Shown here piece after piece: positions 2,937-11,743 of a stretch of DNA of 64,000 bases; the first letter of the stretch is position 1, and the number at the start of each line of letters is the position of its first letter. The DNA is from an uncultured Lachnospiraceae bacterium (GTDB taxonomy: Bacteria; Bacillota; Clostridia; Lachnospirales; Lachnospiraceae). A program made the position numbers and the translations under genes. Under the pieces are notes generated by a model. It worked only from the letters and a program-made list of their open reading frames with translations. It did no database searches and was not told the DNA's origin. The stretch covers positions 1 through 64,000 of the forward strand of contig CANDAG010000003.1 in the NCBI GenBank assembly GCA_947382625.1, in the 5' to 3' direction.

Positions 2937-3236
2937 CTAGGAGACAAAATATTCAACGGCATTCTCCGGAAAATATTCTTTGAACTCACCATACAATTGG
3001 CCTGCCAGGGTTTTATTGTGCGCTATGACCAAAATGGGCTTGTTTAACGCCGCTATGACATTCGCCATGGTAAATGTCTTTCCGGAACCTGTTACCCCCA
3101 GCAAAGTCTGGAATTGGTTGCCTTCCTTGAAGCCTTTGACTAAGGCTTCTATGGCTGCGGGCTGGTCGCCGGTGGGTTGGTATTCAGAATGAAGTTTAAA
3201 CTTTTTTTGTTCATTTTTCGCAGAAAAATTTTGCAC
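2937..3236 (-). pseudogene. uvrB: Truncated duplicate of the uvrB 5' end
   Basis: Minus-strand GTG at 3236 with the same GGAGGTGGC site and first 13 codons as the true uvrB at position 41. It continues through the UvrB N-terminal motor domain: [14 protein letters not shown], the Walker A GVTGSGKT and [18 protein letters not shown]. It stops one codon after EYFVS, at a TAG (2939-2937) that is not part of uvrB, so homology ends at about residue 99 of some 660. The fragment cannot make a functional protein. It could yield a dominant fragment if expressed, since it keeps a LexA box and ribosome binding site. Confidence 0.9.
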
Positions 3237-3259
3237 TAAAAGCCACCTCCATAAATCCA

Positions 3260-3309
3260 TATATCATACCGATTTTAATTTGTACAGTGCTTTTTAGAAC
3301 ATTTGTTCT
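3260..3309 (-). promoter_or_regulatory. Second copy of the uvrB LexA box and promoter
   Basis: AGAACATTTGTTCT (3296-3309) and the adjoining sequence down to about 3260 repeat 271-320 almost exactly. This copy lacks the 205-bp insertion, so the promoter sits directly before the ribosome binding site at 3242-3250. The -10 equivalent reads TATATG. Confidence 0.65.
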
Positions 3310-3703: not shown

Positions 3704-4138
3704 GTGAGAATAACAAATTTGTTTAAAAGAAAAAGAGACATAAAAAGCACTAACATGATACAGGTTAATCGTGACAGCGTATGTATGGCCGATGACTGTA
3801 ATTCTCATGAGGAAAATATGATTTTACCTGAAAATACACGGTTATCAGAGTTGCTGCAACGTCTTGCCCGTTATGTTCCCTCAATGGAAAATGTTATATG
3901 GGCGGTACGTTCAGATGCCGGCATGTGTGGATATATTATCACAGATTCTGATGCCAGTGCTTCATTTGAGTTATGCGGCATGGATATACCTGTAAAAGAA
4001 ATGAACATCAACAAAATCATGTGCAGATACTACTATCCTTCAATCTTCTCCTGGACGGATGGGCAGACCGGAAATCGGATTGAAAAATATCCAGAATGCA
4101 GCACATTTCTTGAAAAGGTTAAAAAGGATAATGAATAA
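3704..4138 (+). CDS. Uncharacterised 144-residue protein, left copy
   Basis: GTG start at 3704 with GGAG about 9 nt upstream. The N-terminus is basic (RITNLFKRKRDIK). Residues 45-140 form a compact acidic/aromatic domain with RLARYVPSMENVIWAV, GYIITDSDASASFELCG and CRYYYPSIFSWTDGQ. There is no signal peptide or membrane segment, and I do not recognise the family. Codons from about 40 onward, and the start of the following small gene, are repeated with few changes at 11294-11645 on the far side of the CBASS operon. In the right copy the following gene (40 aa) is intact; here its start at 4146 is kept, but the frame is lost after about nine codons. Confidence 0.65.
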   Translation: MRITNLFKRKRDIKSTNMIQVNRDSVCMADDCNSHEENMILPENTRLSELLQRLARYVPSMENVIWAVRSDAGMCGYIITDSDASASFELCGMDIPVKEMNINKIMCRYYYPSIFSWTDGQTGNRIEKYPECSTFLEKVKKDNE

Positions 4139-4173
4139 CAAAGAGATGATGTTCGCTTGGAATGCCTCAAAAA
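3822..4173 (+). repeat. 352-bp direct repeat, left copy
   Basis: Near-identical to 11294-11645, a constant offset of 7472 bp. It covers the last 104 codons of the 144-aa gene and the first codons of the 40-aa gene downstream. The two copies bracket the whole RloAB-CBASS operon. Confidence 0.9.
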
Positions 4174-4284
4174 TATTTACCATACAGCTTACTGCTCAAG
4201 CGGCTTACCCGTTTCTTTTTTATGTTTGCCAAATCATAAAGATACAGCTTGTCATATATTTATTTCAAACGCTTTTCCTTCTCA

Positions 4285-4788
4285 TTATTTCTCTACATAA
4301 TAATAAATATGATCGTTTTTGAATATAGACAGATTTATAACCTGACTTTTGGCAACTTCCCCCAAAACCATAAGAATTGGTTCTTTACAATTAAAGTTTT
4401 TATCCTGGGCTATTTTTTTCATCTGTGCTATATCTGCAGCGCTTGGATTTGGACTTGCCCCTGGATGTAAATGCCACTCACCTAAATAATATTCGTTCTG
4501 TTCTTTCCAATGTTGCCGTAATAGACTCTTTAATCCTTTTATGCCTCTGTAAAATCTAAACCTGTCAGCCTTAGAATCTTCAGGAGGCTTTGTACATTCT
4601 GTTATAACAGCATTTTGGCAATCAGCATCATAATGTCCAATAATTATGCCACCCGTTTCCAACTTATTCTTATTATCTGCAATGATTGACAACAACCTAT
4701 GATATGCTGCATCTTCTATAAAAATCTTTGACTTAAGTTCTATATTTTCATATTCTTTCATATCCAGCAAATAAACCATCCATTCCAT
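4285..4788 (-). CDS. cap3: Cap3, JAB/MPN-family isopeptidase of type II CBASS
   Basis: 167-residue JAMM metalloprotease. In type II CBASS, Cap3 removes the CD-NTase from the targets to which Cap2 has joined it, limiting activation. The zinc-site signature is complete: E44 (LETGG), H106 and H108 in EWHLHPG, S116 and D119 in PNPSAAD. The frame overlaps the end of cap2 by 41 nt if the first ATG (4788) is used, or by 14 nt from a second ATG at 4761; neither has a strong ribosome binding site, so translational coupling is likely. It is the last gene of the operon; no clear terminator follows. Confidence 0.9.
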   Translation of the reverse strand: MEWMVYLLDMKEYENIELKSKIFIEDAAYHRLLSIIADNKNKLETGGIIIGHYDADCQNAVITECTKPPEDSKADRFRFYRGIKGLKSLLRQHWKEQNEYYLGEWHLHPGASPNPSAADIAQMKKIAQDKNFNCKEPILMVLGEVAKSQVINLSIFKNDHIYYYVEK

Positions 4789-6520
4789 ATTTTTTTTGAA
4801 GGATATAATTATGCGAGCCTTCCTCTCCTCTGGCTATGAGCTGAATAAGCATCTCCACTGCAGATGTCGCTGCTAAATACATATCACAACCAAGTGCAGG
4901 AAAAACAGGATTCCAGCATCCAATACCATCCCACGGCAACCCATCTGCCAACATTTGTTCTTTATCCTGTTGTGTTAATTTTTCCAAACGGCTATCAAAC
5001 ACTGAACTATTAAAGTATTTCCCCTTATAGTATATAAAATACATCCTTTCCGCCTTATAGCCTACAGATACCGAAACAAAAGTTTTTCTTGCACTAATCT
5101 GTGATAACAGATTTATAATAGAATCTTTTGCTGTGCAATCTATAACCACATCATATGTGTTTAAGCAACTCAAATTATCGGTTGATAAATATTCCGTTAA
5201 AGCTTCCGCCTGTACATGACTATTGACTTCCTCTAAATGTTCCTGCAATGCAGCAGCCTTATTTTGATGCAGATTTCTAATGGATAAAGTATGTCTTGCA
5301 AGATTTCCTACTGCCAAACTATCTCCGTCTATAAGCAGAATTTTCCAAACTCCTGAACGTACAAGTAATTCTGCGATAATAGAGCCAATAGCGCCTACTC
5401 CGATTATCGCAAACTTCTTACTGGTTATTTCTCTATGAAACATTCCTCTATTCAATATCTGTTTCTGATTCCAGTTCTCTGAAAGACACCACTCTATTAG
5501 TTGATTATCTTTAAGAACCTTTAAGGAATCCCTATAGTGCCAGCCAGCCTCGTTTGCCCGAAATCCCTTTTGCGTTTTGTTGTGATGCGAAAGGATTGGA
5601 AGCATCCATGCCCACCAATGATAGTTTTCGGCCTCTCCTCCAAATTGTTTCGGAATAGGAAATCCAATTAAAAGTATATGCCGCTTACCATCCCTTATCT
5701 TATCCAAAAGACGTACAAAGTCTATATCCCATGACAGATTACTTTTTTCAAGTACCTCCTTCAGCTCTGCAACCGTATTTGGCGCTTGCCATCTGTTGAT
5801 GACTGGCACACGATCCAGCATGAGCCAAACTCCTTCATATAAATCTTTGTCATTTTTGCAAACATATCCGCCCCACACATTCTGAACACATAAGTTCCCT
5901 TTTTCATCCCAAAATGAATCAACAAAATACTGACTGTTTCCTTGGTAATACATCTTAAATATTCCCGATTTTGCTCCTGCATCTTCCCATTGCATAAAAG
6001 AAACACAATCTTCATCGAAAATTATTTGTGTCTTCTTTAATTCATTTACATCTGGTAATTCAAAATTGTCCTGTGTAGAAACTAAATTGTCATTCTCTGC
6101 CTTATCTATCCACTCCAAAAGCCGTATGACATTCCACTTTATTCTACCTGCTGCCTCAAGCGGTTCACTATTTATATCTGCCACAGATTCCAAAGGATCT
6201 TTAAGGCAAACATCTCCCTCTCTCCATAATCCATTTTCTGAAATCAGCCCATTATTAGATTGGTGATAAAATGTATCCGCAACTCCTCCAATCACAGAAG
6301 GGAATATTTTCACTTTTCCATAAGGAAAAATGTCCTCAAGCGTTATGTACCATACAGTCTCCTTGGGAATATTTCGCCCTACAAAGTTATGGTGTGCCTT
6401 AATACCCAAATACCATACTGAATCATTTTCATCCCATGCCAGATCCGTTATTAGCTCTACTTGACTAAATTCATCAATACAACGTCTACTTTCCAGCAAT
6501 ATTTCAGATGGTTTTTTCAA
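4748..6520 (-). CDS. cap2: Cap2, E1-E2 fusion ligase of type II CBASS
   Basis: 590-residue fusion of an E2-like domain (about 1-150, catalytic Cys candidate C105 in EGDVCLKDP), a linker, and an E1/ThiF adenylation domain (about 365-590). The latter has GVGAIGS at 374-380, LLIDGDSL for ATP, and the likely E1 cysteine C535 in GIGCWNPVFPA. Known Cap2 proteins adenylate the C-terminus of the partner CD-NTase and attach it to cellular targets, raising second-messenger output. The start is TTG at 6520, overlapping the CD-NTase stop (TTGA), with GGAGGAAGA placed inside the preceding gene. Both catalytic cysteines being present argues for an active enzyme. Confidence 0.92.
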   Translation of the reverse strand: MKKPSEILLESRRCIDEFSQVELITDLAWDENDSVWYLGIKAHHNFVGRNIPKETVWYITLEDIFPYGKVKIFPSVIGGVADTFYHQSNNGLISENGLWREGDVCLKDPLESVADINSEPLEAAGRIKWNVIRLLEWIDKAENDNLVSTQDNFELPDVNELKKTQIIFDEDCVSFMQWEDAGAKSGIFKMYYQGNSQYFVDSFWDEKGNLCVQNVWGGYVCKNDKDLYEGVWLMLDRVPVINRWQAPNTVAELKEVLEKSNLSWDIDFVRLLDKIRDGKRHILLIGFPIPKQFGGEAENYHWWAWMLPILSHHNKTQKGFRANEAGWHYRDSLKVLKDNQLIEWCLSENWNQKQILNRGMFHREITSKKFAIIGVGAIGSIIAELLVRSGVWKILLIDGDSLAVGNLARHTLSIRNLHQNKAAALQEHLEEVNSHVQAEALTEYLSTDNLSCLNTYDVVIDCTAKDSIINLLSQISARKTFVSVSVGYKAERMYFIYYKGKYFNSSVFDSRLEKLTQQDKEQMLADGLPWDGIGCWNPVFPALGCDMYLAATSAVEMLIQLIARGEEGSHNYILQKKYGMDGLFAGYERI

Positions 6521-7620
6521 GCAAATCTTCCTCCTGTCAAATTAACACTTGGCTCTTCTCTCTTGGTAAATACGGCTTGCTGTTGTTTCGGCGCCTCTGG
6601 GAATTTATTTCCAAACAGTTCTCTCCATAAATCTGCACTTTCCTGAACTGTTTCTGCATCATACGCATTTCTTGCTATGACAGCTGCTTCACAAACTGAT
6701 TCATAAAATGCATCATAGTCTTCTTCTGACAACCTGCCAAATACATCATGCTCTGGCACCCCTCTGTCATTCAATATTGGTTTCTTAGGATAATCAGAAA
6801 CTATTTTTTCAAGTGTCAATACTACTCCCTCTGCAATGGATTTAATTCCATCCGGACAGCAATCACCTACAAAATGTTCCAGAGGATAGCTTTTGGGATG
6901 CTTTATATCCGGGAATTTTTCTTTTCTCCACCACTTAATACATTTTACAACATTCACATAATGCCCATTACAGCTTGCATTCTTCTCATGAGTCCAACGT
7001 ATCTGCTCCAGCGGATGTGTTTTGTCCCAAAAATCGGCTTCCCTATCGGGAATAAACAATGGTTCATCCTTCCAGCTTGCATTGTCATCTGCTGCCATAA
7101 ATTCCGCAAATGCGGTTTTCCATGGATTATACACACTTTTTGTCAGCTCTGCAAACATCTCACTCATTACTTCCACGTCATCATTTGAAAGAACTGCCAT
7201 ATTCTCTAACAGTCCCTGTTCTGCCAATGAAGGAGCAGAAGTTGGAACAACATCCAAATCCACATGCGTCATCTCAATTCCCCACGAACGCCCCTGTTTC
7301 CTATATTTACCTTCATAATATTTCTCTAAAAACGGCTCAAAAACATCTAAAGCTTTTTCTGGGGTTACTTCTTCTTTATCCAGTTTTGTTACTACTACAA
7401 TATCCACATCTGACCGTTTTCCCTGTTTCGGCCTTACCGCAGTAGACCTTCTGTAACTTCCCTGCAGAAATGTTGTTACGATAATGTCTTTAAGATCCTC
7501 ATCGGCCATCAGCCTGTTTCTCAACGTCGTATGGGCAGACTTCAGTTCATTAACTTGATTATCAGTCAATCTGATATTCTTTAAAAAATCATTGAAATAA
7601 GTTACCATTTTCTGTGCCAT
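6517..7620 (-). CDS. CD-NTase (cGAS/DncV-like nucleotidyltransferase)
   Basis: 367-residue signal synthase of CBASS: on phage infection it makes a cyclic oligonucleotide that activates the effector. The polymerase-beta-type site is complete: GS at 54-55 in LQGSYRRST, DVD at 71-73, and a third acidic residue in HVDLDVVPTS (D121/D123). The C-terminal tail ends NLTGGRFA; a terminal Ala or Gly is what Cap2 enzymes conjugate. ATG at 7620 overlaps the effector stop by one base (TAATG) and AAAGGAG precedes it. The SAVED effector next door suggests clade C or D and a cyclic trinucleotide product, but the clade was not determined. Confidence 0.92.
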   Translation of the reverse strand: MAQKMVTYFNDFLKNIRLTDNQVNELKSAHTTLRNRLMADEDLKDIIVTTFLQGSYRRSTAVRPKQGKRSDVDIVVVTKLDKEEVTPEKALDVFEPFLEKYYEGKYRKQGRSWGIEMTHVDLDVVPTSAPSLAEQGLLENMAVLSNDDVEVMSEMFAELTKSVYNPWKTAFAEFMAADDNASWKDEPLFIPDREADFWDKTHPLEQIRWTHEKNASCNGHYVNVVKCIKWWRKEKFPDIKHPKSYPLEHFVGDCCPDGIKSIAEGVVLTLEKIVSDYPKKPILNDRGVPEHDVFGRLSEEDYDAFYESVCEAAVIARNAYDAETVQESADLWRELFGNKFPEAPKQQQAVFTKREEPSVNLTGGRFA

Positions 7621-9125
7621 TATAATTCTCCTTTCTGTGGAAACGAAATTGTCGGATAGTATGTATTCTCATTTGCATTAAACTCATAAATCTGTATTTT
7701 GCCATACATCATGGACTGCATTCCTAAATAAAACATCAAGGAATTAGGGCCTGCAATAAATAAATGCATGATCCCTTTCTTCAAAGTTCCTGAACGTCTG
7801 CTTATCTCAGCATTTATCTGTTTTGCAAGCTGCCATGCATGGGCTCCGTTTTTTACAGCATCCGTTCCAAAGTCCTCCAATAAGAAATTTTTATAAAGAC
7901 CTATTTTAAGTTTGCTATTTTCGATAAAGTCCTTAACATCTCCGTTGATATCATGCGTAATGCCTATAGACACTGCCATATCATTTCCCCCATCGCATAA
8001 TACTTCCTCCGATATAACAAATTTACTATATTCCGATTCATTGGTATCATTTCTTTTCCAATCAATGCAGCCGTCCAATGTCTTTTGCACAGGAATCACT
8101 TTTATCCCGGATTTGGGATTAAGTATACGCCCAACAGTAAAAGAAACCGATAACAATGTCTCTAAAGCCATATGATACTCTATCTCATAATTGAGCCTGC
8201 TGCTGACAAATTGTTCTATCGATTGAAAAACATCCTCCCAGGACTTCCCGGGTCTCAGCTCCCTCTGCTCCAGAACATCCGCCAAGTCCAGTACATCACT
8301 TGCCCAGTTCGTCAGCCATTCTGTATGTCTGGTAAAACTTTTTATAGCTATTGAAGCAACATCTTTGGCAGCAACAAAAAATCCTTCCCTATTACAATAA
8401 TTTCTTATATCGTCAACGTTTACCATATTAATGTCGCTTCGATTCCATGCACGTACCAAATCACAATATGGAAGTGTATCTATACTGTCCGGCCACGGTT
8501 TCAATCCATAATGGAGAAACTCACGACTTAATATCTCCTTTAAGTTTTCCATGCTTTCCTGCCCGTCTTTTATCCGGACCTGTTTTAAAATATCTATCAG
8601 TTCACTTTCACTCACAGACAAGCTTTCACAAAGTCTTTTACGGAGTCTCCCCATCTTTGAATTCACGGTTTTCCCTTTTTGCAACTCGTTAAGATCAAAT
8701 GTTTTATTCTCATTACTGATCAGCTTGTTTAATATATCTCCAGGACTAATTCGCCATACCGAATACATTGTAAAACGACTTCTTGAAAAATCTATTTTTT
8801 CATTTTTATACGCATTTACAACATTCTGTAGAAATGAATTTGTTTTCGCATTTATAAATGCCGGATCTAACAAATTGTCCATTGTAATCTCATCCGATTG
8901 TTTCACATGATACTTTACCTGAATATAATCAGTATCTATATAAGCATCTCTAAAACGCTGTTCTTTCTTATAGCAAATAACAATGTCGTCAAACGATTTA
9001 ACCTTTCCATATTCGTAGCCGATCTTCTCTATGTCTGAATTTCCAAACGTCTGTATTGCATATTTCCAAAACACCATTGCCTGATAGATATCCCCAAGTT
9101 CCCTTGCCGCTACAGCATTTCCCAA
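7620..9125 (-). CDS. cap4: Cap4-like CBASS effector: nuclease plus SAVED domain
   Basis: 501 residues. The N-terminal part (about 1-150) looks like the DUF4297 restriction-type nuclease of Cap4: RELGDIYQAMVFWKY opening, then an acidic D46-D47 followed by Q69-V-K71 in DYIQVKYHV, a PD-(D/E)xK arrangement. The C-terminal part (about 290-501) fits a SAVED ligand sensor, ending MHLFIAGPNSLMFYLG and YYPTISFP. In studied Cap4 proteins the cyclic oligonucleotide binds SAVED, the protein oligomerises and degrades dsDNA, killing the infected cell. The start is TTG at 9125 with AAGGTAGG upstream; no ATG fits. It lies 33 nt after the RloB gene. Confidence 0.85.
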   Translation of the reverse strand: MGNAVAARELGDIYQAMVFWKYAIQTFGNSDIEKIGYEYGKVKSFDDIVICYKKEQRFRDAYIDTDYIQVKYHVKQSDEITMDNLLDPAFINAKTNSFLQNVVNAYKNEKIDFSRSRFTMYSVWRISPGDILNKLISNENKTFDLNELQKGKTVNSKMGRLRKRLCESLSVSESELIDILKQVRIKDGQESMENLKEILSREFLHYGLKPWPDSIDTLPYCDLVRAWNRSDINMVNVDDIRNYCNREGFFVAAKDVASIAIKSFTRHTEWLTNWASDVLDLADVLEQRELRPGKSWEDVFQSIEQFVSSRLNYEIEYHMALETLLSVSFTVGRILNPKSGIKVIPVQKTLDGCIDWKRNDTNESEYSKFVISEEVLCDGGNDMAVSIGITHDINGDVKDFIENSKLKIGLYKNFLLEDFGTDAVKNGAHAWQLAKQINAEISRRSGTLKKGIMHLFIAGPNSLMFYLGMQSMMYGKIQIYEFNANENTYYPTISFPQKGEL

Positions 9126-9158
9126 TTTTCCTACCTTCTTTCAGTACATAATTTGCAT

Positions 9159-9809
9159 TTATCTAACATCCACTTTTTTCCTTATTTCCTCCACCAGCTG
9201 ATAAACCGTTGTACACGGACACATTAGGGATGGGATAGTCTTCCCTTCCCGTATACATTGTTCATACTTCTGCTTTGCTATTTGAAGTGCCTTTTGTTCA
9301 TTCCCTGTCCGGAAGATCTTTTCATACACTCCTGTATCAGATTTTGAATACTTCTGTCCTGTCTTTCTTTGAAAAATCTTTTCAAACTCACTACAGCATA
9401 CCCATGATTCCAAAATAGATGGCATTGTACCATAATAAGAATACATCCAAATTTCAAAACATGGATTTGACCAGCCCACCCTTATTCCAAAAGATTCTGC
9501 CTCTTTGATAATCTCGTCAAAATCTTTTACCTCATCTCTGTCAAACACAATCCATGGTATGCGGTATTGTGCATCATAAGCAGTCATTGCAAGGCATTTA
9601 TCAATCATTGCCCTTGTCTTAGTCTCTACTACCTTGATTACCAATTTGTTTTGTATTTCCTTTGGAAGTCCCTTATGCAATCCCTGGAAATAGCATCTCT
9701 CCGTCGCCTCCGTATCAGTAACAACCAGATAATAGCCCAGTTCTGGAACCATGATAGGAGGACGCTGTTCCCTGGGTTTTCGGTTCCCAGTCCTGTCTTT
9801 TCTTGCCAT
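9159..9809 (-). CDS. RloB-family protein (AbiLii-like)
   Basis: 216 residues of the RloB family, a TOPRIM-like presumed nuclease found with an RloA-type ATPase in abortive-infection systems such as AbiL. Conserved landmarks are the early acidic TDTEATERCYFQGL, the aspartate motif WIVFDRDEVKDF, and SNPCFEIWMYSYYG, which is characteristic of the family. It follows rloA by 5 bp and precedes the Cap4 gene by 33 bp in the same direction, so all six genes probably share one transcript. Whether it acts with RloA as a separate defence module or contributes to the CBASS response cannot be decided here. Confidence 0.85.
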   Translation of the reverse strand: MARKDRTGNRKPREQRPPIMVPELGYYLVVTDTEATERCYFQGLHKGLPKEIQNKLVIKVVETKTRAMIDKCLAMTAYDAQYRIPWIVFDRDEVKDFDEIIKEAESFGIRVGWSNPCFEIWMYSYYGTMPSILESWVCCSEFEKIFQRKTGQKYSKSDTGVYEKIFRTGNEQKALQIAKQKYEQCIREGKTIPSLMCPCTTVYQLVEEIRKKVDVR

Positions 9810-9814
9810 GCCAG

Positions 9815-11077
9815 TTACTCCTCCTTAAAGATATCAATACTTTTCAATGTCGGAATCGCACCATATTTACCAATCAGATAGTTTTTTTCGTAACTCTCAT
9901 CTTTTCGGATTCTTGATCCGGACTCATCTACAAAGTCTGCCAGCGAATATAATTTTGATATTCCCTGTTCATCTTTTTCGGTAAACCACACCTCATCCCT
10001 GCGCAAAAGCTGATTAGACAACTGCCATGTATCATGTGTCGTAAAAATCAGCTGTGCATGCTTTGTGTTGATTTCCGGATTCAGGAAAGTAAGCAGAAAA
10101 TTCCGTACCAGCAATGGGTGCAGACGGGCATTTAATTCATCTATAAAAAATACACTTCCTTTCTCCAGAACATCCTGTAGTTCCGGATACAAAGCAAACA
10201 TTTTCAGAGTACCTGCTGATTCCATGCTCAGCGGTATGGCAGCAAATGTATCCGAATCAATTTTTTTATGCAGCGAACTAATTTTATAGGTTTCTTCTTT
10301 ACTGTCTGCATCCTGCGGAAGTTTTTCTATCTCAAAATCTTTAATGTGTTCATCGAAGGATGCAAAATACTCAATGACTTTCTTTTGCACACTGTCATCT
10401 TCAACAAAACCTTTGGGCAAACGGCGAGATAAAAAGAAATTGGTAAATGGATCCCCGAAATCTGCAAACTCATTTGCCAGGAACCAGTCACGAATATCTT
10501 TGCACTTAGTTACCTTTAATTTCGCACCAAGAGAAACAATCAGAACCTGTTTTTCCAAAGCTACTTGAATATTGTCTCTGCTGCTTTTAGGAAGTCCGGA
10601 CAAATCCAACGTGTCTTCTTCAGTGGAACGGTAAAAAATGGAAGAATATTTACGTGCAGTTTTTGCCTTAACATTTAGCCATTCCTCGGTCACTCCGTGT
10701 CTGTCTATGCAAAAACCATAATTATATGTTTTTTCTGCTTTATCACCTGGAATGGTAAAATATACTTCAAAACTGGATTCTGCATCACTTGAAACACTGT
10801 CAAACAAAAATGGCGTAGGCCTGTATTCCTCAAATTTCTCTTCCTCATCCCCATATTTAAAAGATTCAATCACATAATCTGCCATATATTCGAATGCATT
10901 ATATATATTGGATTTTCCACTTGCATTTGCCCCATATATAGCCGCCATAGGCAATATCTTATCATTTCCTTCCGAAACTACTCGATCAGAAAACTCTGTC
11001 ATCTTTGCCGCAGATAAGTCTAATGTTGCCTCATCCCTAAATGATTTAAAATTCTTAAAATTAAATTGTATAAGCAT
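9815..11077 (-). CDS. RloA-family AAA/ABC-type ATPase (AbiLi-like)
   Basis: 420-residue SMC/ABC-like ATPase of the AAA_15/AAA_21 type. Walker A is at 49-57 (GANASGKSN), a signature-like region at MESAGTLKMF, Walker B at VFFIDELNARLHP and the switch histidine in IFTTHD. In RloAB/AbiL systems the ATPase is thought to be the sensor that controls the RloB partner. ATG at 11077 follows GAGGTG. It is the first gene of the defence operon and lies just downstream of a good promoter at 11107-11134. Confidence 0.88.
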   Translation of the reverse strand: MLIQFNFKNFKSFRDEATLDLSAAKMTEFSDRVVSEGNDKILPMAAIYGANASGKSNIYNAFEYMADYVIESFKYGDEEEKFEEYRPTPFLFDSVSSDAESSFEVYFTIPGDKAEKTYNYGFCIDRHGVTEEWLNVKAKTARKYSSIFYRSTEEDTLDLSGLPKSSRDNIQVALEKQVLIVSLGAKLKVTKCKDIRDWFLANEFADFGDPFTNFFLSRRLPKGFVEDDSVQKKVIEYFASFDEHIKDFEIEKLPQDADSKEETYKISSLHKKIDSDTFAAIPLSMESAGTLKMFALYPELQDVLEKGSVFFIDELNARLHPLLVRNFLLTFLNPEINTKHAQLIFTTHDTWQLSNQLLRRDEVWFTEKDEQGISKLYSLADFVDESGSRIRKDESYEKNYLIGKYGAIPTLKSIDIFKEE

Positions 11078-11106
11078 GTTTACACCTCGCTTCTTTCTTT
11101 ACGTCT

Positions 11107-11134
11107 ATTATACCGTATTATCCCCATTTTTCAA
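11107..11134 (-). promoter_or_regulatory. Promoter of the RloAB-CBASS operon
   Basis: On the minus strand TTGAAA (11134-11129), 16-bp spacer, TATAAT (11112-11107), about 30 bp upstream of the first ATG. No operator or regulator gene (such as CapW/CapH-P) is seen nearby. Confidence 0.6.
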
Positions 11135-11293
11135 TGCTTAAATTAGATTTTTTCTCAGTTAAATGTATTTTATGTGTGCATTTTGGCAATATACAATATA
11201 ATCCATGGAATAATCAACCCACCTTAAACGCAGGCATGCCCTCCAGCTTACCATCTGTGTTCAACAGTATAGAGAAATAAGGATATGCCTAAA

Positions 11294-11610
11294 TTTCACC
11301 TGAAAATACACGGTTATCAGAGTTGTTGCAACGTCTTGCCTGCTATGTTCCCTCAATGAAAAATGTTATATGGGCAGTACGTTCAGATGCCGGCATGTGC
11401 GGCTATATTATCACAGATTCTGATGCCAGTGCTTCATTTGAGTTATGCGGCATGGATATACCTGTAAAAGAAATGAACATCAACAAAATCATGTGCAGAT
11501 ACTACTATCCTTCAATCTTCTCCTGGACGGATGGGCAGACCGGAAATCGGATTGAAAAATATCCAAAATGCAGCACATTTCTTGAAAAGGTTAAAAAGGA
11601 TAACGAGTAA
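11294..11610 (+). pseudogene. Uncharacterised 144-aa protein, right copy, 5'-truncated
   Basis: Repeats the last 104 codons of the gene at 3704 (first changes: R to C in RLARY, E to K before CSTFLEK). The first 40 codons and ribosome binding site are replaced by unrelated sequence ending GCCTAAATTTC. No good start codon remains, so it is probably not translated in full. It marks the right edge of the inserted defence operon. Confidence 0.75.
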
Positions 11611-11620
11611 CAGAGAGGTG

Positions 11621-11743
11621 ATGTTCGGTTGGAATGCCTCCAAAGACTTACTTGATGAAAAAAGACTAACTTTTGAAGCCGCATATGCTATTTCCAATGT
11701 TATAGATACCGACATAAAAATTTTAATTAAAGGAATTAAATAA
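11621..11743 (+). CDS. Uncharacterised 40-residue protein
   Basis: ATG at 11621 with AGAGAGG immediately upstream, 10 bp after the stop of the 144-aa homologue. The product is charged and helical (FGWNASKDLLDEKRLTFEAA then DTDIKILIKGIK) and ends at TAA 11743. The left copy of this gene (from 4146) loses homology after NASK. The reading frame immediately after the stop, in another phase, continues for 45 codons without a start (see 11745), so the 40-aa form may itself be a frameshifted product. Confidence 0.45.
   Translation: MFGWNASKDLLDEKRLTFEAAYAISNVIDTDIKILIKGIK

Follow-up and report, generated by a model that had tools for sequence, protein, structure and literature searches.

RloA-RloB as a putative general head for exchangeable defence cargo, mainly in Lachnospiraceae

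Why should a complete antiphage system follow directly behind an RloA/RloB pair? The question is raised by a stretch of 64,000 nucleotides from an uncultured Lachnospiraceae bacterium (assembly GCA_947382625.1, contig CANDAG010000003.1, positions 1 to 64,000; hereafter the window), in which six genes, all intact (6/6), run on the minus strand from 11077 to 4285 in the order RloA, RloB, Cap4, CD-NTase, Cap2 and Cap3, the last four being those of a type II cyclic oligonucleotide-based antiphage signalling system (CBASS). The original prediction had described an operon joining the two systems, and coordinates and family scans agree with that layout: all genes point in one direction, with gaps of 5 bp between RloA and RloB and of 33 bp between RloB and Cap4, and the later junctions overlap by 1, 4 and 41 bp. 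The RloAB-CBASS adjacency is real and recurs elsewhere; judged from sequence comparison, it is better read as a general head (RloAB) carrying one of several exchangeable cargoes than as RloAB being a part of CBASS.

We compared the best 80 of 144 RloB-related stretches obtained by scanning genome contigs with RloB (those assigned to a named family being mostly Lachnospiraceae), and sought the CBASS genes in these loci by tblastn with the six window proteins. Many of the loci are metagenome assemblies, and those of the near clade are related, so that counts there are not independent. RloA stands directly upstream of RloB in 79/80 loci (some contigs hold only the 3' part of RloA, L087 none). Cap4 follows RloAB in six of the 80 (L036, L038, L039, L050, L065 and L113), and the arrangement is thus not unique to this strain. 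All four CBASS genes are present in L038 (where Cap4 is divided between two frames), in L050 and in L113; an internal deletion affects L036, Cap4 is truncated in L039, and L065 stops at the contig end. L113 is from the cultured Claveliimonas monacensis DSM 108991, its RloB being frameshifted over about the last 25 residues, and L039 is likewise from a named strain. Compared with the window, Cap4 of L050 and L113 is about 40% identical and their CD-NTase about 69%. RloB was found in 68/392 genomes of the order and in 19/398 of a phylum-wide draw. SAVED proteins exceeded the cut-off in 4/392 order genomes, among which only the window's own genome had SAVED adjoining RloB; set against this order rate, the 6/80 loci with SAVED by RloB are indicative only, the sampling units being mixed. 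Within the genus, RloB was matched in 13/37 genomes, in only four of these (own genome included) at 68% identity or more; therefore, the RloAB module is accessory in the genus. A pairing specific to CBASS was rejected, because RloAB precedes proteins of at least seven other kinds of system and because a SAVED CBASS exists without RloAB (L118, behind a gene resembling a recombinase by eye).

For the neighbour counts L037 was dropped (its RloB gene call is missing), leaving 78 loci with a gene called after RloB. This gene lies on the same strand in 68/78, at a median gap of 24.5 bp and within 60 bp in 50/78; the gene before RloA shares the strand in 51/70, at a median gap of 158 bp and within 60 bp in 5/70. 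PADLOC was run at 1e-10 on the first gene after RloB wherever this lay on the same strand and no more than 200 bp away (n=64). Among the matches listed (25 of 104 families) were six SAVED effectors, five QatA, three each of bSEFIR, cyclases and LmuA, and two GajA; before RloA (n=70) no family occurred more than twice among the matches listed (25 of 43 families), and mad2, ZorD/DpdE and restriction proteins were also present there, as expected in a defence neighbourhood. Proteins of at least eight kinds of system stand behind RloAB, namely two kinds of CBASS, 6A-MBL, a Qat-like KAP system (so called from the QatA-type protein alone), bSEFIR, Gabija, Lamassu and dCTPase. Both proteins of 6A-MBL exceeded the NCBIfam cut-offs in L080, and L053, L055, L087, L097, L098 and L099 were assigned to it by clustering. 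Gabija is represented by GajA and GajB in L083, Lamassu by LmuB in L048 and L074, the non-SAVED CBASS by a cyclase in L056, and dCTPase by L049 (and L105 by clustering); L085 carries PDC-S72. Weaker or partial matches were DrmC (L062), a type II restriction enzyme (L089) and an OLD/AriA-like ATPase (L082), and the cyclase match of L093 lies under its NCBIfam cut-off.

The unit that these loci have in common is a cassette of promoter and RloAB, about 2.0 kb long, in a mostly Lachnospiraceae clade. Homology of the window head starts about 96 bp before the RloA ATG; it ends in the last RloB codons in loci with other cargo, and continues to near the end of Cap3 in L038. We examined 838 ordered locus pairs with heads at least 80% identical over at least 1.5 kb and with enough sequence to either side; these pairs are not independent of one another. 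The match stops within 40 bp of the RloB stop in 779/838 pairs and extends further in 30; at the other edge it begins 20-140 bp before the RloA ATG in 732/838 and reaches further in 106. Beyond RloB homology resumes in 28 locus pairs, though in some of these (e.g., L040/L044 and L047/L051) it does so within related cargo, which is no swap. Exchange is clearest among L079, L083 and L086, whose heads are 92-93% identical and whose right flank is common to all three, L079 and L083 also sharing 4.6 kb of left flank (89%): the slot holds a Gabija of 4.2 kb in L083, a different set of 2.6 kb in L079, and no cargo (98 bp) in L086, which with L092 represents a cargo-free dock. One right flank, which opens at the first codon of a gene resembling a recombinase (judged by its cluster, c2, and by eye), is common to L049 (dCTPase), L050 (SAVED CBASS), L056 (another cyclase), L059 and L072 (bSEFIR). 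Further exchanges separate L080 and L099 (6A-MBL) from L106, and L053 (6A-MBL) from L075, the cargo of L106 and L075 being without family match. A quick LG+G4 tree was built from 75 RloA+RloB rows, of which 33 carry one of ten cargo labels; on it the labels need 19 changes (minimum 9; shuffled mean 23.1; 0/200 shuffles as low). SAVED CBASS accounts for six changes, at least four of them forced by starred branches, and 6A-MBL and KAP, with three changes each, are more clustered than in the shuffles. The smallest starred set that includes the window has six rows, with four SAVED, one KAP and one BlaR-like cargo.

Such exchange between common flanks is also what would be expected if RloAB were no more than the constant left border of a recombination hotspot carried by mobile elements, with cargo swapped by homologous recombination and the defence layers acting independently. 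This plain hotspot is the strongest rival explanation, although we regard it as unlikely. It would account for common left and right flanks around different or no cargo, for the several right flanks that open at a recombinase-like gene (the cluster c2 gene is present in 22/80 loci), and for an intact RloAB where CBASS is damaged (L036, L039); it does not sit well with the many unrelated cargoes spaced tightly on the same strand right behind RloB, with upstream neighbours less rich in defence genes, or with the window unit, whose flanks differ from those of the other loci and which has no adjoining recombinase. Hotspots of variable antiviral systems are known from P2/P4 phages and satellites (PMC9122126), and the loci described here resemble them in the variable content of the slot, but here a defence module forms one of the constant flanks, and its promoter points into the cargo.

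As a separate observation, the slot is bordered on either side by the ten bases GTAACAGAAC in L079 and L086, just after the RloB stop and before the recombinase-like gene; they could be a recombination site or a chance occurrence.

Of the single good promoter in the original prediction, the scan of the window by itself gives no evidence (31 promoters found against 29.7 expected); what speaks for it is that the same -35 and -10 boxes are conserved upstream of RloA in relatives, with the consensus AAAATACAtntAAATGAGAAAAAATCaCATTTanaTGTTGATT...TATAAT. No terminator was listed by a consensus scan in the 33-bp gap between RloB and Cap4, and the terminator and separate promoter that would divide the operon at this point were not found. 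A putative operator adjoins the promoter, with the core TGAGA-N5-TCTAA in the window and TGAGA-N5-TCnCA in relatives; it overlaps the -35 box, and its position is therefore as expected for repression. Inverted repeats scoring at least 10 were found in 21/73 upstream regions compared with 0.7% of shuffles, 16 of them at the operator and five (L063, L065, L069, L077 and L081) further upstream; in the window the outer half-sites are degenerate and the best stem is weak (score 6). When the core was sought as TGAGA-N4-7-TCTCA (in 160-base stretches of near loci and 120-base stretches of control upstreams), at least 8/10 positions matched in 68/75 near loci, 14/25 distant RloABs of the order and 21/159 control upstreams, and all ten in 6/25 distant RloABs and 0/159 controls (Fisher, distant vs controls: p 7e-6 for at least 8/10 and 4e-6 for 10/10). 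Scores were obtained for 19 of 25 additional loci, mainly of other orders, and the core reached at least 8 in 11/19 (150-base stretches, no separate control). Most of these further RloABs lack tight cargo, and the operator thus fronts cargo-free RloABs too. In the window's own genome the RloA promoter is the sole place within two mismatches of the 24-base pattern; nine others, at three mismatches, all lie inside called open reading frames (ORFs), as do all three places with the exact short core (four for the control). A host-wide regulon is consequently not supported. Because the operator fronts cargo-free RloABs and because no other promoter-placed site occurs in the own genome, it seems to belong to RloAB and not to the cargo or to a host regulon. 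An RNA hairpin is not favoured either, since the palindrome is located on the 5' side of the -10 box, its half-sites vary little and the covariation signal is weak. Of the 20 positions examined, those at 11-13 bases from the centre gave p 0.0075-0.0525 and that at 20 bases p 0.03, and at 22 bases 0/2000 shuffles were as extreme (kinship not controlled).

The pair itself is of the RloAB/AbiL type, an ABC ATPase with Walker A and Walker B motifs adjoining an RloB-domain protein (PF13707, 1e-33). With the PADLOC models, RloA matched AbiLi (4e-91) and AriA (7e-29) of the phage anti-restriction-induced system (PARIS), and RloB matched AbiLii (4e-22) only, the AriB model being unmatched. To solved structures RloA gave weak profile matches only, to PtuA (0.04), and RloB had no match among PDB sequences. 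RloB is related to OLD_TOPRIM domains and AbiLii (PMC10440598), and RloA and RloB are absent from the part available of a review of OLD nucleases (PMC10568477). AbiL (AbiLi/AbiLii) is likewise a two-gene pair of ABC ATPase and RloB/TOPRIM protein, and the loci studied differ in that other defence systems follow the pair and its operator is conserved, two features that do not appear in the available portions of the AbiL descriptions. PARIS resembles RloAB in having a separate ABC ATPase sensor, AriA, and a TOPRIM tRNase, AriB (PMC12409363); it differs in that RloB lacks an AriB match, and in the text at hand PARIS is not described as the head of other systems. The closest functional precedent is provided by the WYL regulators BrxR, a repressor reported to bind inverted repeats (PMC9122601), and CapW (PMC9122588), beside which RptR has been named (PMC12255303): here too one regulator family fronts diverse defence systems, but RloAB is an ATPase-nuclease pair, and neither a WYL domain nor a helix-turn-helix was found in RloA or RloB by Pfam at 1e-3.

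By analogy to AbiL and PARIS, RloAB might act as a sensor-nuclease pair, and from the operator and the operon order we infer that it might also control its own promoter and hence the cargo docked behind it, a reading that we hold tentatively, at somewhat less than an even chance. The cassette, its sharp 3' edge, the exchange of cargo between common flanks and the conserved operator are features of the sequences compared; binding of the operator by RloA or RloB, a single transcript, infection sensing and RloB activity would be needed in addition. RloAB, carried mainly in Lachnospiraceae, would then combine an ABC-ATPase sensor and a TOPRIM-type nuclease effector with an operator-promoter of its own; the diverse defence systems are docked immediately behind RloB, often so closely that no separate promoter would fit between. 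In the uninduced state, RloA and/or RloB would sit on the operator and keep the whole operon low; a phage trigger meeting RloA would cause the pair to leave the operator and release the RloB nuclease, and the promoter would open, so that the dose of cargo might rise with infection. The broader form, in which RloAB is a general-purpose sensor-switch whose operator turns on any docked defence and serves at least eight kinds of system, is in our view doubtful.

Two other roles have been considered for the pair. AAA proteins are reported to neutralise TOPRIM_OLD toxins, and AbiL has been discussed as such a system (PMC10440598), suggesting an addiction module in which RloA would neutralise a toxic RloB and cells that lose the locus would die, which would stabilise the genes that follow. 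Damaged cargo behind an intact RloAB fits this, the operonic position of the cargo is left unexplained by addiction alone, and we consider it improbable. The AriA match of RloA and the diversity of cargo would suit a general guard that, as in PARIS, would respond to phage inhibitors of the adjoining defence and cause cell death once the cargo is put out of action; yet inhibitors of at least eight kinds of system would all need to be recognised by one guard, and cargo-free docks exist, making this quite improbable as well.

Several observations weigh against control of the cargo by RloAB. The gene after RloB lies on the opposite strand in 10/78 loci, and the next same-strand gene is 61-200 bp away in 14/78 and farther in 4/78. 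Among distant RloABs of the order, a same-strand gene lies within 60 bp in 5/24 and the next gene is on the opposite strand in 12/24; docking is therefore a feature of the near clade, in which the operator counts, too, are not independent. Pfam at 1e-3 detected no DNA-binding domain in either protein of the pair, giving AAA/SMC-type domains only for RloA and the RloB domain only for RloB. The 24-base pattern scored 12 strand-hits in the own genome and its reversed control five, although those outside the RloA promoter are all within ORFs. The cargo of six loci (L047, L060, L075, L084, L095 and L106) matched neither Pfam (1e-4) nor PADLOC (1e-10), other cargo lacks a clear defence role (GGDEF in L071, BlaR1-like in L040), and other loci are cargo-free. 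Defence genes could also accumulate in a slot next to a recombinase in the absence of regulatory coupling, and all of the evidence is sequence, for many loci from metagenome assemblies.

The CBASS of the window appears from its protein sequences to be an ordinary type II system, with CD-NTase, effector, Cap2 (E1-E2) and Cap3 (JAMM), each with active-site residues. Family scans gave 7e-129 for Cap4 (SAVED_PDDEXK), 4e-155 for the cyclase, 2e-174 for E1-E2 and 2e-48 for JAB. The catalytic residues named in the original prediction were all found (GS...DVD of the CD-NTase by eye); its choice of C105 and C535 among the ten cysteines of Cap2 is compatible with their conservation in 4/4 aligned Cap2 proteins, but C211 and C462 are equally kept. 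The CD-NTase matched the solved cyclic AMP-AMP-GMP (cAAG) synthases 7ljl/7d48 (E about 1e-101), Cap4 matched 7yib (5e-47) and Cap2 matched 7to3 (7e-67). These solved relatives underlie the assignment, and cAAG is probably the product, as predicted by similarity alone. The window thus has all four proteins of the type II CBASS with a cAAG synthase, Cap4, Cap2 and Cap3, and differs in that its copy sits behind RloAB on the same strand.

Among the papers listed by full-text searches of open-licence PMC we found no description of RloA/RloB or AbiL with CBASS as one operon, none of RloAB as the head of defence operons, and no paper on '6A-MBL' by name. What activates bacterial immune systems and how they recombine on mobile DNA are the questions addressed, and a conserved head and operator, combined with interchangeable cargo such as CBASS, Gabija, Lamassu and 6A-MBL, would allow both to be examined with a single construct. 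A discovery rule may also follow, by which genes without assigned function docked behind RloAB are candidate new defence genes. The six docked proteins without match are such candidates (ORFs L047:10768-12819, L060:857-2641, L075:9985-12090, L084:11090-12715, L095:3762-4949 and L106:11794-13227).

Table 1. Coordinates of the operon, its control region and its flanks in the window.
Feature	Position	Strand	Remarks
Operon promoter	11107-11134	-	TTGAAA, 16 bp, TATAAT; conserved in relatives
Putative RloA operator	11132-11166	-	Imperfect palindrome overlapping the -35 box
RloA	9815-11077	-	AbiLi-like ABC ATPase, 420 amino acids (aa); Walker A G49-S56; Walker B D313 E314
RloB	9159-9809	-	AbiLii-like, PF13707, 216 aa; TOPRIM-type E...DxD residues
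Cap4	7620-9125	-	PD-(D/E)xK nuclease-SAVED effector, 501 aa, TTG start; first cargo gene
CD-NTase	6517-7620	-	Nearest solved structures are cyclic AMP-AMP-GMP synthases; C-terminus GGRFA
Cap2	4748-6520	-	E1-E2 ligase
Cap3	4285-4788	-	JAMM isopeptidase
Stretch alignable to L038	4296-11176	-	Reaches from about 100 bp before RloA almost to the Cap3 end
Head alone	~9159-11176	-	Common to loci with other cargo
Left direct repeat	3821-4172	+	352 bp, inside a complete 144-aa ORF, no family assigned
Right direct repeat	11293-11644	+	96% identical to left copy; ORF 5'-truncated, then different sequence

The window unit lies between two direct repeats (Table 1), an arrangement that might follow from a single-crossover insertion. 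An empty site was not found among the 60 genomes searched, in which the flanking ORF occurs only in the own genome. Origin from a phage or plasmid was considered and rejected: no Cap4 relative was found on viral contigs, and RloB was found on one (47%). RloB occurs in only two plasmid records and one phage record, all below 29% identity, and relatives of Cap4 occur in 31 plasmid records, at about 28-32% identity among the matches listed. Beside the left repeat, a 70-bp remnant (4177-4246) matches the end of an ORF family without assigned function, which is present twice elsewhere in the own genome (C24:41526-41596, 85%; C12:16155-16221, 76%). A short ORF at 2937-3260 resembles the N-terminal part of UvrB and is apparently a fragment (by eye).

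The own genome, which is 88% complete, contains a second RloAB (L116, contig C76, RloB at 1676-2302), 57/53% identical to that of the window, with its own palindrome before RloA and a gap of 273 bp to the next gene, and a third, distant RloB (L117, contig C2). A Cap4-like nuclease-SAVED protein, 37% identical to Cap4 of the window, is encoded at L119:5979-7496 (G155), where its neighbours resemble a type III CRISPR locus (named by eye).

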